From contig CASDZW010000016.1 of the NCBI GenBank assembly GCA_949285915.1, positions 1 through 53,096 of the forward strand: a stretch of DNA of 53,096 bases. The letters are read 5' to 3'. Of this stretch, positions 28,494-31,316 are shown piece by piece. Under the pieces are notes generated by a model, which worked only from the letters and a program-made list of their open reading frames with translations, ran no database searches and was not told the DNA's origin. The stretch's first letter is position 1. Every line of letters starts with the position of its first letter. Source of the stretch: an uncultured Collinsella sp. (GTDB taxonomy: Bacteria; Actinomycetota; Coriobacteriia; Coriobacteriales; Coriobacteriaceae). A program made the position numbers and the translations under genes.

Positions 28494-28530
28494 GCGACCC
28501 CAAAACGCGCGTGCGCGCTGCGCATCCTAT
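28494..28530 (+). promoter_or_regulatory. Candidate SigI-type promoter of the sigI operon
   Basis: GCGACCCC (28494-28501), a 19-nt spacer and CGCATCCTAT (28521-28530) precede sigI. The same two elements with the same 19-nt spacing occur before the lipoprotein gene (30125-30161). ACCCC-type -35 elements are known for SigI of Firmicutes, so autoregulation is inferred. Confidence 0.6.
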
Positions 28531-28547
28531 GGGCAGAAGGGGAGACC

Positions 28548-29303
28548 ATGGGTTTGCGGAACGACATTGCCGCGCGCGTGCGGGCGGCGCAGAGGGATGC
28601 GCATCGGGCAGATGACCTGGTACGCGACTACCTGCCGTTCATCAAGGCCGAGACCGCAAAGTTCACGGGGCGAAGCCCCCAAGAGGGGTCTGATGACGAG
28701 CTGGGAATCGCTATGTTTGCGTTTCACGAGGCAGTGATGGCATATGATGCGCGCCGCGGCGCGTTCCTGCCGCTTGCGGCCCGCTTCATCAAAAACCGCC
28801 TCATCGACTACCGCCGCCGCGAGGCGCGCCACCTCACGGTCGTGTCGCTCGACAGCGCAACCGACGACACCGACGGTGACGAGCGTCCCGCTCTGGTGGA
28901 CCAAATCGCCACTGAACATTCGGATATGGACGAGGGCATGGTTCGCGAGGCGACGCGAAAAGAGATTCGCGAGCTCGCCGCGCTCCTCGAGACCTACGGC
29001 GTGTCGTTTGCTGACGTAGCGGACAATTGCCCTAAGCAGGACCGCACACTCGATACCTGCCGGACCGCCATCCGCTATGCGCGCGAGCATTTTGAGCTCA
29101 TCGAGCAGCTTGAGGCAACGGGTAAGCTACCGCTTGCCGCCATAGCCTCAGGCGCGGGTGTCGAGCGCAAGACGCTCGAGCGCCACCGTCGCTACCTTGT
29201 GGCGATGCTTCTCATCTATACCAACGGCTTCGACATCATTCGAGACCACCTCTACAAGGTGGTTGGTGCCGCGCCCGAGGTAGCGGGGGGTGATGCGGCA
29301 TGA
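28548..29303 (+). CDS. sigI: RNA polymerase sigma factor SigI
   Basis: This 251-residue alternative sigma factor belongs to the SigI subfamily, known from heat shock in Bacillus and cellulosome control in Clostridium thermocellum. Region 2 is seen in RDYLPFIKAETAKFTGR, DDELGIAMFAFHEAVMAYD and FLPLAARFIKNRLIDYRRRE. The C-terminal part (SGAGVERKTLERHRRYLVAMLLIYTNGFDIIRDHL) is the SigI-specific helix-turn-helix, with ERHRRYL typical. AGAAGGGGAG lies before the ATG. Its stop overlaps the start of the anti-sigma gene (ATGA), showing coupled synthesis. Confidence 0.92.
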   Translation: MGLRNDIAARVRAAQRDAHRADDLVRDYLPFIKAETAKFTGRSPQEGSDDELGIAMFAFHEAVMAYDARRGAFLPLAARFIKNRLIDYRRREARHLTVVSLDSATDDTDGDERPALVDQIATEHSDMDEGMVREATRKEIRELAALLETYGVSFADVADNCPKQDRTLDTCRTAIRYAREHFELIEQLEATGKLPLAAIASGAGVERKTLERHRRYLVAMLLIYTNGFDIIRDHLYKVVGAAPEVAGGDAA

Positions 29304-30064
29304 GGTACCTGGTGCTCGAGTGCGCTCTGAGCTTTGCCGTCGTGCTCGACGAAGAGGGCCGCGTGCGGCGCGTGCCCAACCTGGGCTACGCCGTGGGCGA
29401 GGTGCGGGAGGATATCTACCTTGCCGATACGCCCATAGACGACGCCGCGGTCCGGCGCCGCGGTCCGGCGCGCACGGTGTGGTGGCTGGCGGCTGCGGCT
29501 TGCCTTTGCGCTGCCATCATCGGCGGTGCGTGGTTCTGGCAGACGCCGCGAGGTACCGTGCACTTGGAGATTAACCCATCTGTTGCCATTGAGGTCAACC
29601 GGTTTGACCGTGTGGTTGGGCTTGCTGGTGAGAATGCCGACGGCGAGGCCCTTATCGAGGGCTATTGGTCCTACGGCAAGGAGGCCGAGACGGTGGTCTT
29701 TGAGCTCACCGACCGCGCGGCCGACGCGGGGGATCTTGCAGCAGGTGGCGCGGTGGCACTTGATGTGGCTTCGGACGACGAACCATGGCGCGCCGAGACC
29801 GAGGAGCGTCTGATCGCTGACCTCTCCGCCCACGTGGGCGAGGACATCATGGTCGCTCGCAGGGCAGACATCGAGGCCGCGCAGGCAGCTGCTGACGATC
29901 TGCTTGAGGAGGTAGTCGTCGAGGTGCCCGAGCCGGAGCCCGCGGACCCCGCGCCTGCGCTGGCAGCGCCCGCGCCTGCGCCTGCCCCCGCCCCGACGCC
30001 TGAGCCAACCTATAGCGATGACAGCGGCTACGGGAACTCCGGTTACAGCGGTTACGACGATTAA
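29300..30064 (+). CDS. rsgI: RsgI-like transmembrane anti-sigma factor
   Basis: This 254-residue protein should hold SigI inactive at the membrane until an outside signal. The N-terminal cytoplasmic RsgI domain (about 1-55: LVLECALSFAVVLDEEGRVRRVPN) is followed by one membrane helix (about 59-80: TVWWLAAAACLCAAIIGGAWFW) and the RsgI extracellular core (HLEINPSVAIEVNRFDRVVGLAGENADGEALI). Instead of a carbohydrate-binding module, the outer part ends in a Pro/Ala-rich stretch and a Gly/Tyr/Ser/Asp tail (SGYGNSGYSGYDD). That tail resembles the end of the lipoprotein encoded next. Confidence 0.9.
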   Translation: MRYLVLECALSFAVVLDEEGRVRRVPNLGYAVGEVREDIYLADTPIDDAAVRRRGPARTVWWLAAAACLCAAIIGGAWFWQTPRGTVHLEINPSVAIEVNRFDRVVGLAGENADGEALIEGYWSYGKEAETVVFELTDRAADAGDLAAGGAVALDVASDDEPWRAETEERLIADLSAHVGEDIMVARRADIEAAQAAADDLLEEVVVEVPEPEPADPAPALAAPAPAPAPAPTPEPTYSDDSGYGNSGYSGYDD

Positions 30065-30124
30065 CGCTCGCGTTCTGGCTTCTCCTGCGTAGCGGCAAGA
30101 AAAAAAGTCCAAAAAAGTATTCGT

Positions 30125-30161
30125 GCGACCCCGGTTTGGGAATGGGTCCTCCGCAACCTAT
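30125..30161 (+). promoter_or_regulatory. Second SigI-type promoter, before the lipoprotein gene
   Basis: GCGACCCC (30125-30132), 19 nt, CGCAACCTAT (30152-30161) reproduces the sigI promoter signature, differing by one base in the -10-like block. The intervening 19 nt are unrelated, so the match is not a simple duplication. CAGAAGGG follows both copies. Confidence 0.6.
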
Positions 30162-30209
30162 CACTGTCAGAAGGGAAAACCGGAAGAACCGGTGACCAAA
30201 GGAGGAAAC

Positions 30210-31316
30210 ATGTTGGCTACAAGGACTCTCTCCCGCATCGCAGGCATCGGCGTGTGCGCTGCCCTGATAGCCGGGCTTAGCGGCTGCGGAACGCTGCTCC
30301 CCTCAACTCCCTCGGGTAGTGGCACGGCGGCCATCGGTAGCGTTCTTTTGAGCGTGAACCCCGAGATTGAGATCGCCTATGACAGCCAGGGCGACGTGGT
30401 GGCGGTTTCTGGCGCCAATGAGGACGGCAAGAGCGTGCTTGCCGATTTTGACAACGCTATCGGTCGGCCGGCGACGATGGTTGCGGGTGAGCTCGTCGGC
30501 GAGATTGATGACGATGGCTACTTTGAGAACGGCATCGGCGGGCGCGAGCGCAATATCGTTCTCAAGATCGCGGACGGGTCGCGGGCGCCTTCCGATAGCT
30601 TTATGGATGACATGGCGGCAAGTGTGCAGAAGGCGGCAAGCGACCGCGGTTTGGGCTCGAGCGCCTACGCCATCGGAGATGACGACCTGGACGATACCGG
30701 ACTCATTGGCATCGATGCTGCCAAGCAGCTGGTATTGGGGCAGCTGGGGCTCGATCCGGCGACGGTGACCTTCCACGAGCGCGAGTATGAACTCGATGAC
30801 GGCGTGTATGAGTTCGAGTTCACAGCGAACGGCACCGAATACGACTTTGAGGTTGACGCTCGTACCGGCAAGGTGCTCGAGGCCGACTTTGACCGCAACG
30901 ATGACTGGGACGACCGCGATACGTGGGATGATGGCAATTCTGGCTACGACGACGGCAACTCGGCATACGATGATGGAAACTCCGCCTATGATGACGGCAA
31001 CTCGGCCTACGATGATGGAAATTCGGCATACGACGACGGCAACTCTGGCTATGACGACGATATGGACGACTACGACGACGGAAATTCCGCGTATGACGAC
31101 GGTGTGAGCGACTACGGCGTGACCGCAACGGTCTCGACTGCCGCCCCCGCCCCAGCTCCCGCTCCGGAGCCCACTTCAGCACCCGCTCCCGCCCCGTCAC
31201 CCTCCTACGATAGCGACAGTGGGTATGACTACGACAGCGGATACGATTACGATGACGGAAACTCGGGCTACGACTCTGATAGCGGCTACGACGCTGACAG
31301 CGGATACGACGATTAG
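30210..31316 (+). CDS. Secreted lipoprotein with RsgI-type and PepSY domains and DDGNSAY repeats
   Basis: This 368-residue lipoprotein has a signal peptide with lipobox LSGC. Residues about 45-80 (SVLLSVNPEIEIAYDSQGDVVAVSGANEDGKSVL) match the extracellular core of RsgI. About 165-230 is PepSY-like (AAKQLVLGQLGLDPATVTFHEREYELDDGVYEFEF, VDARTGKVLEADFD). Then come eight 7-residue repeats (DDGNS[AG]Y, one degenerate), a Pro/Ala spacer and a second Asp/Ser/Gly/Tyr tail. The gene follows sigI-rsgI and has its own SigI-type promoter, so it is probably a SigI target. It may act as an extracellular sensor, decoy or cell-surface binder; function is unproven. AAAGGAGG precedes the ATG. Confidence 0.8.
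   Translation: MLATRTLSRIAGIGVCAALIAGLSGCGTLLPSTPSGSGTAAIGSVLLSVNPEIEIAYDSQGDVVAVSGANEDGKSVLADFDNAIGRPATMVAGELVGEIDDDGYFENGIGGRERNIVLKIADGSRAPSDSFMDDMAASVQKAASDRGLGSSAYAIGDDDLDDTGLIGIDAAKQLVLGQLGLDPATVTFHEREYELDDGVYEFEFTANGTEYDFEVDARTGKVLEADFDRNDDWDDRDTWDDGNSGYDDGNSAYDDGNSAYDDGNSAYDDGNSAYDDGNSGYDDDMDDYDDGNSAYDDGVSDYGVTATVSTAAPAPAPAPEPTSAPAPAPSPSYDSDSGYDYDSGYDYDDGNSGYDSDSGYDADSGYDD
30927..31094 (+). repeat. Tandem 21-bp coding repeats (DDGNS[AG]Y) in the lipoprotein
   Basis: Eight 21-bp units encode DDGNSGY or DDGNSAY; unit 7 is DDDMDDY. Codons vary between units (GATGAT/GACGAC, GGA/GGC, AAC/AAT) while the peptide stays constant, which points to selection on the protein. Such acidic repeats could bind calcium or other cations. 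Confidence 0.85.

Follow-up and report, generated by a model that had tools for sequence, protein, structure and literature searches.

The draft genome of an uncultured Collinsella sp. (assembly GCA_949285915.1; 1.88 Mb, approximately 82% complete) carries on its contig 16 (CASDZW010000016.1, of which a stretch of 53,096 nucleotides was analysed and is hereafter called the window) a gene for a SigI-family sigma factor, sigI, a gene for the anti-sigma factor RsgI, and a gene for a lipoprotein that combines an RsgI-like domain with a PepSY domain. SigI and the lipoprotein very probably share one SigI regulon, and on balance we consider it probable that the module is a minimal, apparently closed SigI circuit, with the lipoprotein as a dedicated effector that meets the stimulus of RsgI. 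The gene order, the shared and conserved promoter, the near-absence of other matching sites, the domain make-up of the proteins and the co-occurrence of their genes are directly observed. The components are of known kinds; what appears to be new, judging from the literature search described below, is their arrangement, in which an RsgI-like PepSY lipoprotein is the one conserved target of SigI besides its own operon.

The sigI-rsgI operon and the lipoprotein gene are both preceded by the two-part signature GCGACCCC-N19-CGCAWCCTAT, which the initial annotation had reported with identical spacing and which is exact at both positions (Table 1). When three mismatches were allowed, the window contained three matches against 0.10 expected, a number reached in 0 of 100 shuffles, and the search of the whole draft genome that the same annotation had proposed, performed with a gap of 18 to 20, returned only these two places and none in the reversed control. 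A chance repeat as the origin of the signature was rejected on the basis of the shuffles, the whole-genome scan, its controls and the relatives described below. More relaxed scans of the whole draft genome gave three further sites with three mismatches (three in the reversed control) and four with the core pattern plus two mismatches (two in the control); the only extra site inspected (C7:17886) precedes an unrelated frame. A larger regulon in this genome was rejected at the stringency used, relaxed sites being about as common in the reversed control.

In published accounts, SigI promoters combine an A-tract with CGWA in the -10, and the A/T tract belongs to the -35 element (PMC10575876, PMC6056542). 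Such a tract is present in both window promoters (AAAA and GGTTT), and a T tract is found in most Clostridia sites. The spacers had been described as unrelated, which is not wholly correct since both begin with this tract. The assignment of the signature as a SigI-type promoter is upheld: it follows the published layout save for the third -10 base, and the two promoters differ together between the phyla. The start predicted for the sigI-rsgI operon in Table 1 was placed by taking the C of CGCA as position -14, as in published SigI complexes.

Table 1. Features of the sigI-rsgI-lipoprotein module and of related loci; positions without a prefix refer to the window.
Feature	Position	Strand	Description
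Contig 16, whole window		+	SigI/RsgI module and lipoprotein gene, all on the plus strand
SigI-type promoter of sigI-rsgI operon	28494..28530	+	-35 GCGACCCC, A tract AAAA (28502-28505)
-10 of sigI-rsgI promoter	28521-28530	+	CGCATCCTAT; predicted start near 28535
sigI	28548..29303	+	SigI-family sigma factor, 251 amino acids
rsgI	29300..30064	+	anti-sigma factor; overlaps sigI stop by 4 bases
RsgI Asn92-Pro93 codons	29573..29578	+	predicted self-cleavage site; alignment to 8hep_B
SigI-type promoter of lipoprotein gene	30125..30161	+	-35 GCGACCCC, GGTTT tract
-10 of lipoprotein promoter	30152-30161	+	CGCAACCTAT; predicted start near 30166
Lipoprotein gene	30210..31316	+	368 amino acids; signal peptide, lipobox LSGC (Cys26), SEAL-like RsgI_M, PepSY, acidic tail
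RsgI_M/SEAL-like domain of lipoprotein	30342..30641	+	whole-genome family scan
Lipoprotein Asn50-Pro51 codons	30357..30362	+	at RsgI cleavage-site position; V-N-P-E-I invariant
PepSY domain of lipoprotein	30756..30881	+	residues 183-224; PF03413; solved PepSY protein 9vy3, E 2.9e-8
Acidic repetitive tail of lipoprotein	30924..31313	+	partly 21-base repeats
SigI-type promoter with acidic Pro/Glu/Lys-rich protein, Ruminococcus	L092:6924, L093:4951, L105:9470, L109:7936, L208:836		
Second-kind RsgI_M proteins	L200:860-1843, L201:1007-1852, L202:1227-2147, L203:1032-1961, L204:1037-1885		

The three genes form a conserved cassette. In a SigI search of genome contigs, from which the best 80 of 100 relatives were kept, sigI, rsgI and a gene encoding RsgI_M plus PepSY occur in that order in 64 of these 80 loci, and L085, where the lipoprotein gene is cut by the contig end, is the 65th carrier. 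Seven loci (L047, L081, L082, L088, L090, L096 and L098) end before the lipoprotein gene could show; 65 of the 73 assessable sigI loci, belonging to Coriobacteriia and Clostridia, thus carry it. The gene is missing in eight loci (L091, L092, L093, L105, L106, L109, L111 and L113), which constitute one Ruminococcus clade (support 100/100). These eight also lack the Asn-Pro of RsgI, present in the other 72 of the 80 RsgI proteins, and both losses map as one event on the tree. In a class sample of 197 genomes, 19 have SigI, and exactly these 19 also have a full-length lipoprotein (>280 bits). By SigI, Collinsella sp. An268 and An307 are the closest relatives that bear a name (99% identity). Published accounts place SigI in Bacilli and Clostridia (PMC12203970, PMC10575876, PMC6056542), in line with the statement of the initial annotation that SigI is known mainly from Firmicutes; the module is nevertheless not peculiar to Coriobacteriia, the cassette being shared with gut Clostridia.

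Sites of the SigI type precede sigI in 73 of the 80 loci, 68 by one pattern and 5 by a looser one. A matrix built from sigI sites only (34 per group) was then run on the 180 bases before each lipoprotein gene; three of its Coriobacteriia training sites (L049, L052 and L060) are a spurious upstream match, by which the matrix is slightly blurred. It finds a site at 32 of 35 lipoprotein genes in Coriobacteriia (9.9-32.1 bits), each outscoring all 271 control upstream regions (best control 5.8 bits), and at 28 of 29 in Clostridia (15.7-37.3). The start was miscalled in the three Coriobacteriia genes that it misses (L048, L062 and L067), and in the Clostridia gene (L097) the site lies 166 bases before the start of the open reading frame, beyond the scanned stretch; with these four recovered by pattern, the 60 found by matrix become 64 of 64. 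Five of the 298 Clostridia controls score 26-35, the others at most 4.6, and all five are SigI-type sites themselves, before the cut lipoprotein gene of L085 and before four Ruminococcus copies of an acidic protein. Both promoters have CGCA as their -10 core in Coriobacteriia, and CGTA in Clostridia, with the exception of the sigI sites of L048, L059 and L068, Coriobacteriia loci that have CGTA. Before the lipoprotein gene of L114, a Candidatus Heritagella metagenome-assembled genome, four tandem SigI-type promoters are spaced approximately 105-115 bases apart (L114:8400-8770).

The signature search in related Coriobacteriia, which the initial annotation had also proposed, returned matches almost confined to sigI and the lipoprotein gene. 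Among 65 Coriobacteriaceae genomes, the combined pattern gave 20 matches, every one next to a SigI-type gene, distributed over 11 genomes; the reversed control gave one. The 24 genomes reached via the Coriobacteriia loci gave 38 matches (18 at sigI, 19 at the lipoprotein gene and one elsewhere; control 0), of which 37 are at the locus; the remaining one, in G267, has a spacing of 17 and is judged to be due to chance. Several of these 24 genomes appear to be assemblies already among the 65 (the match positions of G252, for instance, are identical to those of G164), and the two counts are not additive. For the 31 genomes reached via the Clostridia loci, 44 of 47 matches are at the locus (15 at sigI, 26 at the lipoprotein gene and 3 at a linked Ruminococcus acidic protein; control 0), and the three others lie at a second lipoprotein copy (L207), at an unlinked copy of the Ruminococcus acidic protein (L208) and at a sigI promoter repeated at a contig end (L209). 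Within the reach of promoter patterns, the small closed regulon suggested for the window is supported in its own genome and in relatives.

In the Ruminococcus loci without the lipoprotein, the SigI-type promoter sits instead before an acidic, Pro/Glu/Lys-rich secreted protein (Table 1). The second lipoprotein copy mentioned above (L207:767-2020, from the L084 genome) is unlinked to the module, combines the SEAL-like and PepSY domains, has its own SigI-type promoter and is located near a recombinase-like frame.

The gene identities assigned initially (SigI, RsgI and a PepSY lipoprotein with an RsgI-like domain) agree with Pfam and NCBIfam scans. The window SigI aligns with the solved SigI6 over residues 10-234, essentially its full length (5.8e-20), and also with SigI1, whose C-terminal domain (6ivu) matches residues 136-235; together with the Sigma-70 region 2 (PF04542, 31 bits) it thus has the region 2 and the C-terminal domain of a SigI, and it is organized as expected of one, with an sigI/rsgI overlap and a SigI-type promoter of its own. 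The NCBIfam SigI models score it at 95-166 bits, including NF006178, the best, at 166 bits (cut-off 306) and TIGR02895 at 146 bits (cut-off 185); because all scores stay under their cut-offs, the protein is classed by sequence as a SigI homologue outside the curated NCBIfam subgroups. The Coriobacteriia sequences form one clade in the midpoint-rooted SigI tree (support 100/98), which fits either one transfer or one old origin followed by losses. A residue accounting for CGCA versus CGTA was sought by eye in the SigI alignment, and none was clean, lineage being a confounder.

RsgI consists of an N-terminal beta domain, a transmembrane helix (residues 57-81), a SEAL-like domain (RsgI_M, PF23750, 60 bits) and a Pro/Ala plus Gly/Tyr/Ser/Asp tail. 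Its AlphaFold2 model (mean predicted local distance difference test score, pLDDT, 85.6) has RsgI domains as best fold matches, and the N-terminal domain of RsgI1 (6ivs) also appears among its matches, so that a predicted SigI-binding N-terminal domain, a single transmembrane helix and an RsgI outer domain are all present. Strands 85-90 and 94-99 of the model flank Asn92-Pro93, and the outer chain of the solved RsgI1 (8hep_B) begins at the proline that a weak sequence alignment (E 0.01) pairs with Pro93. The window RsgI is accordingly predicted to cleave itself at Asn92-Pro93. In the pathway as outlined in PMC12203970, self-cleavage of the outer domain of RsgI is followed by separation of its first strand; the breakdown of RsgI is then completed by RseP and a Clp protease, and SigI becomes active.

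The RsgI-like extracellular segment noted initially in the lipoprotein was confirmed by family, fold and profile. Pfam identifies RsgI_M (PF23750, 46 bits) and PepSY (PF03413, 39 bits); the model of the folded part (pLDDT 86.3) has Bacillus subtilis RsgI (8t9n) as its best match (Foldseek probability 1.00, E 3.1e-6); and the lipoprotein profile matches that of RsgI over 67 columns with an E value of 3.4e-15. This comparison used 57 lipoprotein rows (the window plus 56 of 64, seven near-duplicates and L112 being left out) and 55 RsgI rows (the window plus 54 of 80). The lipobox cysteine and the V-N-P-E-I motif are invariant in all 57 lipoprotein rows, and its Asn-Pro sits between model strands 20-25 and 29-34, the first and second strands of an RsgI outer-domain fold, making Asn50-Pro51 a candidate self-cleavage site by analogy with RsgI. 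A functional difference between NPS in the window RsgI and NPE in the lipoprotein was rejected, most RsgI proteins reading NPE too. The lipoprotein itself does not qualify as an anti-sigma factor: only a signal peptide and lipobox precede the outer domain, and both a cytoplasmic sigma-binding domain and a transmembrane helix are lacking.

The tails of the two proteins are alike. The 130-residue tail of the window lipoprotein contains 35 Asp, one Glu and no Lys or Arg, and in 58 pairs (6 of 64 were left out, all cut by contig ends) the median charge is -30 over the last 60 residues of the lipoprotein and -26 over the last 45 of RsgI. Two tails of the same genome are more similar than those of mixed pairs, in composition (0.89 vs 0.79) as well as in 3-mers (0.135 vs 0.070). 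The shared tail proposed by the initial annotation is thus real; its description as Gly/Tyr/Ser/Asp was too narrow, the tails of the relatives being both acidic with varying repeats.

RsgI_M is also found in other Coriobacteriia proteins. A second kind keeps the Asn-Pro, lacks PepSY and has Gly/Tyr/Asn/Asp-rich repeats (Table 1); it adjoins a frame with a VTC domain (polyphosphate polymerase type), identified by Pfam in L200 and L203 and similar in appearance in the others. Control of these proteins by SigI was rejected, no matching promoter being present before them in the five loci. In L007, L010, L012, L015, L020 and L025, RsgI_M proteins lie beside a short frame that by eye resembles an extracytoplasmic function (ECF)-type sigma factor more than a SigI.

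The favoured circuit would operate as follows. RsgI would span the membrane and keep SigI inside, exposing its SEAL-like domain and an acidic disordered tail; an envelope condition reported by this outer part would lead to regulated proteolysis of RsgI and to the release of SigI. Free SigI would then read two promoters, that of its own operon, giving more SigI and fresh inhibitor, and that of one lipoprotein, which would repeat the plan of the sensor at the outer membrane surface of the cell, with a lipid anchor, a SEAL-like domain with Asn-Pro, a PepSY domain and an acidic tail. Promoter use, self-cleavage and the RseP and Clp steps are extrapolated here from known SigI/RsgI biology. The lipoprotein would most likely be a dedicated effector that meets the same ligand or wall state as the outer part of RsgI: since the sole conserved output repeats the sensor, the simplest reading is that both encounter one stimulus, and that the signal is thereby damped or shaped. 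A ligand shared with RsgI and feedback on RsgI are plausible, and the lipoprotein could close the loop by titrating the stimulus or by binding the outer domain of RsgI; we propose a feedback loop of either kind tentatively, as something short of probable. An unlikely, more specific form is that the lipoprotein acts as a decoy of its own regulator, its lipid-anchored first strand and its releasable body, once separated by self-cleavage, exchanging with the corresponding parts of RsgI; a rising amount of lipoprotein would then re-cap the cut sensor of RsgI, or compete with it, and reset SigI. If true, the sole output of this sigma circuit would be a mimic of the sensor borne by its anti-sigma factor, an arrangement retained in two phyla.

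In favour of this circuit stand the exact promoter pair without a further site in the genome, the linkage of the lipoprotein gene to sigI-rsgI and its promoter in both phyla, the pattern matches and the co-occurrence in relatives, the RsgI fold of the lipoprotein domain, the four tandem promoters of L114 and the likeness of tails within a genome. Several observations weigh against a closed circuit of this kind. The -10 core in the window is CGCA, with C at the third base, and not the published CGWA, and the window SigI has Gln at the position of His171 in SigI6. No sigI site was found by either pattern in seven of the 80 loci (L076, L078, L094, L097, L102, L104 and L114), G187 has the module genes and gives no match with the combined pattern, and 4 of the 24 Coriobacteriia-set and 4 of the 31 Clostridia-set genomes are likewise without a match. 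The patterns, built from these very promoters, miss true sites, and weaker targets could exist, also in view of the incomplete draft. The within-genome likeness of the tails, reached in 0 of 2000 shuffles, comes from a statistic that ignores relatedness. Finally, the lipoprotein is not indispensable to SigI, because the eight Ruminococcus loci have sigI without it.

In a close rival, which we regard as doubtful, the lipoprotein is no more than an envelope effector under SigI control, acting on the wall or on secreted proteases and never meeting RsgI or its ligand, the shared domain reflecting common ancestry. The regulon evidence fits this explanation equally well, RsgI_M is not confined to anti-sigma factors because it is found beside VTC-domain genes without a SigI-type promoter, and Ruminococcus gives the promoter to another acidic secreted protein; it gives no reason, however, for the recurrence, in the single conserved target, of both the sensor domain and the type of tail found in RsgI. 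The charge of the tails in both proteins, and the acidity of the Ruminococcus replacement target, would also suit an immunity-type response to a cationic agent (antimicrobial peptides or calcium, for instance) that is sensed by the RsgI tail and sequestered by the tail of the lipoprotein. Acidic disordered tails are, however, common among surface proteins, and PepSY and the invariant Asn-Pro would have no role; we consider this explanation quite improbable. That the signature serves a different regulator as its operator, or is an RNA element, and precedes both genes by chance is very hard to credit: the CGCA core would allow it, but the two blocks, the 19-21 base spacing, the A/T tract and the CG[CT]A core agree with SigI promoters in the literature, all matches in the Coriobacteriaceae lie beside a SigI-type gene, and sigI is present in all eight class-sampled genomes among the 11 with matches.

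The dedicated-effector circuit can be set beside known SigI systems. SigI6/RsgI6 and SigI1/RsgI1 of Clostridium thermocellum share with it full-length SigI homology, the sigI-rsgI operon, an autoregulating promoter with an A-tract and a CGNA core, and the RsgI outer fold. They differ in that their targets are cellulosome genes and their RsgI ends are carbohydrate sensors, as described in PMC12203970 and PMC6056542, whereas the window has the lipoprotein as sole matching second target, an acidic, disordered tail, a CGCA core and Gln in place of His171. Lys-His-Arg 170-172 of SigI6 are described as conserved residues that contact the minor groove, His171 being essential for A-tract reading, in PMC10575876 and PMC6056542. 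All 80 SigI rows have P[KRQ]Q at the place of Lys170-His171 instead, and to judge from this alignment A-tract reading in the present subgroup may differ from that of SigI6. The outer fold of B. subtilis RsgI is the best structural match for both window proteins. Several wall genes are under SigI control in B. subtilis, which is not known to have an RsgI-like PepSY lipoprotein. CD1622 of Clostridioides difficile (4exr), a PepSY lipoprotein, shows weak likeness in the PepSY region (E 0.22 by sequence; E 0.093 and probability 0.10 by fold). No publication joining RsgI and PepSY was found, in a search with subscription literature mostly outside its scope, so that an earlier mention is possible; publications combining PepSY, an anti-sigma factor and a lipoprotein were found, none of which concerns SigI, judged by their listing.

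Most descriptions of alternative sigma factors list many targets. The SigI of gut Coriobacteriia and gut Clostridia, which appears to drive only its own operon and one RsgI-like lipoprotein gene, would isolate the signalling core of such a system, and the setting and resetting of RsgI would become testable with three genes. The promoters of the two groups, moreover, form natural pairs for studying the recognition by sigma-I of the third -10 base (C or T), and of the A/T tract in the absence of His171.

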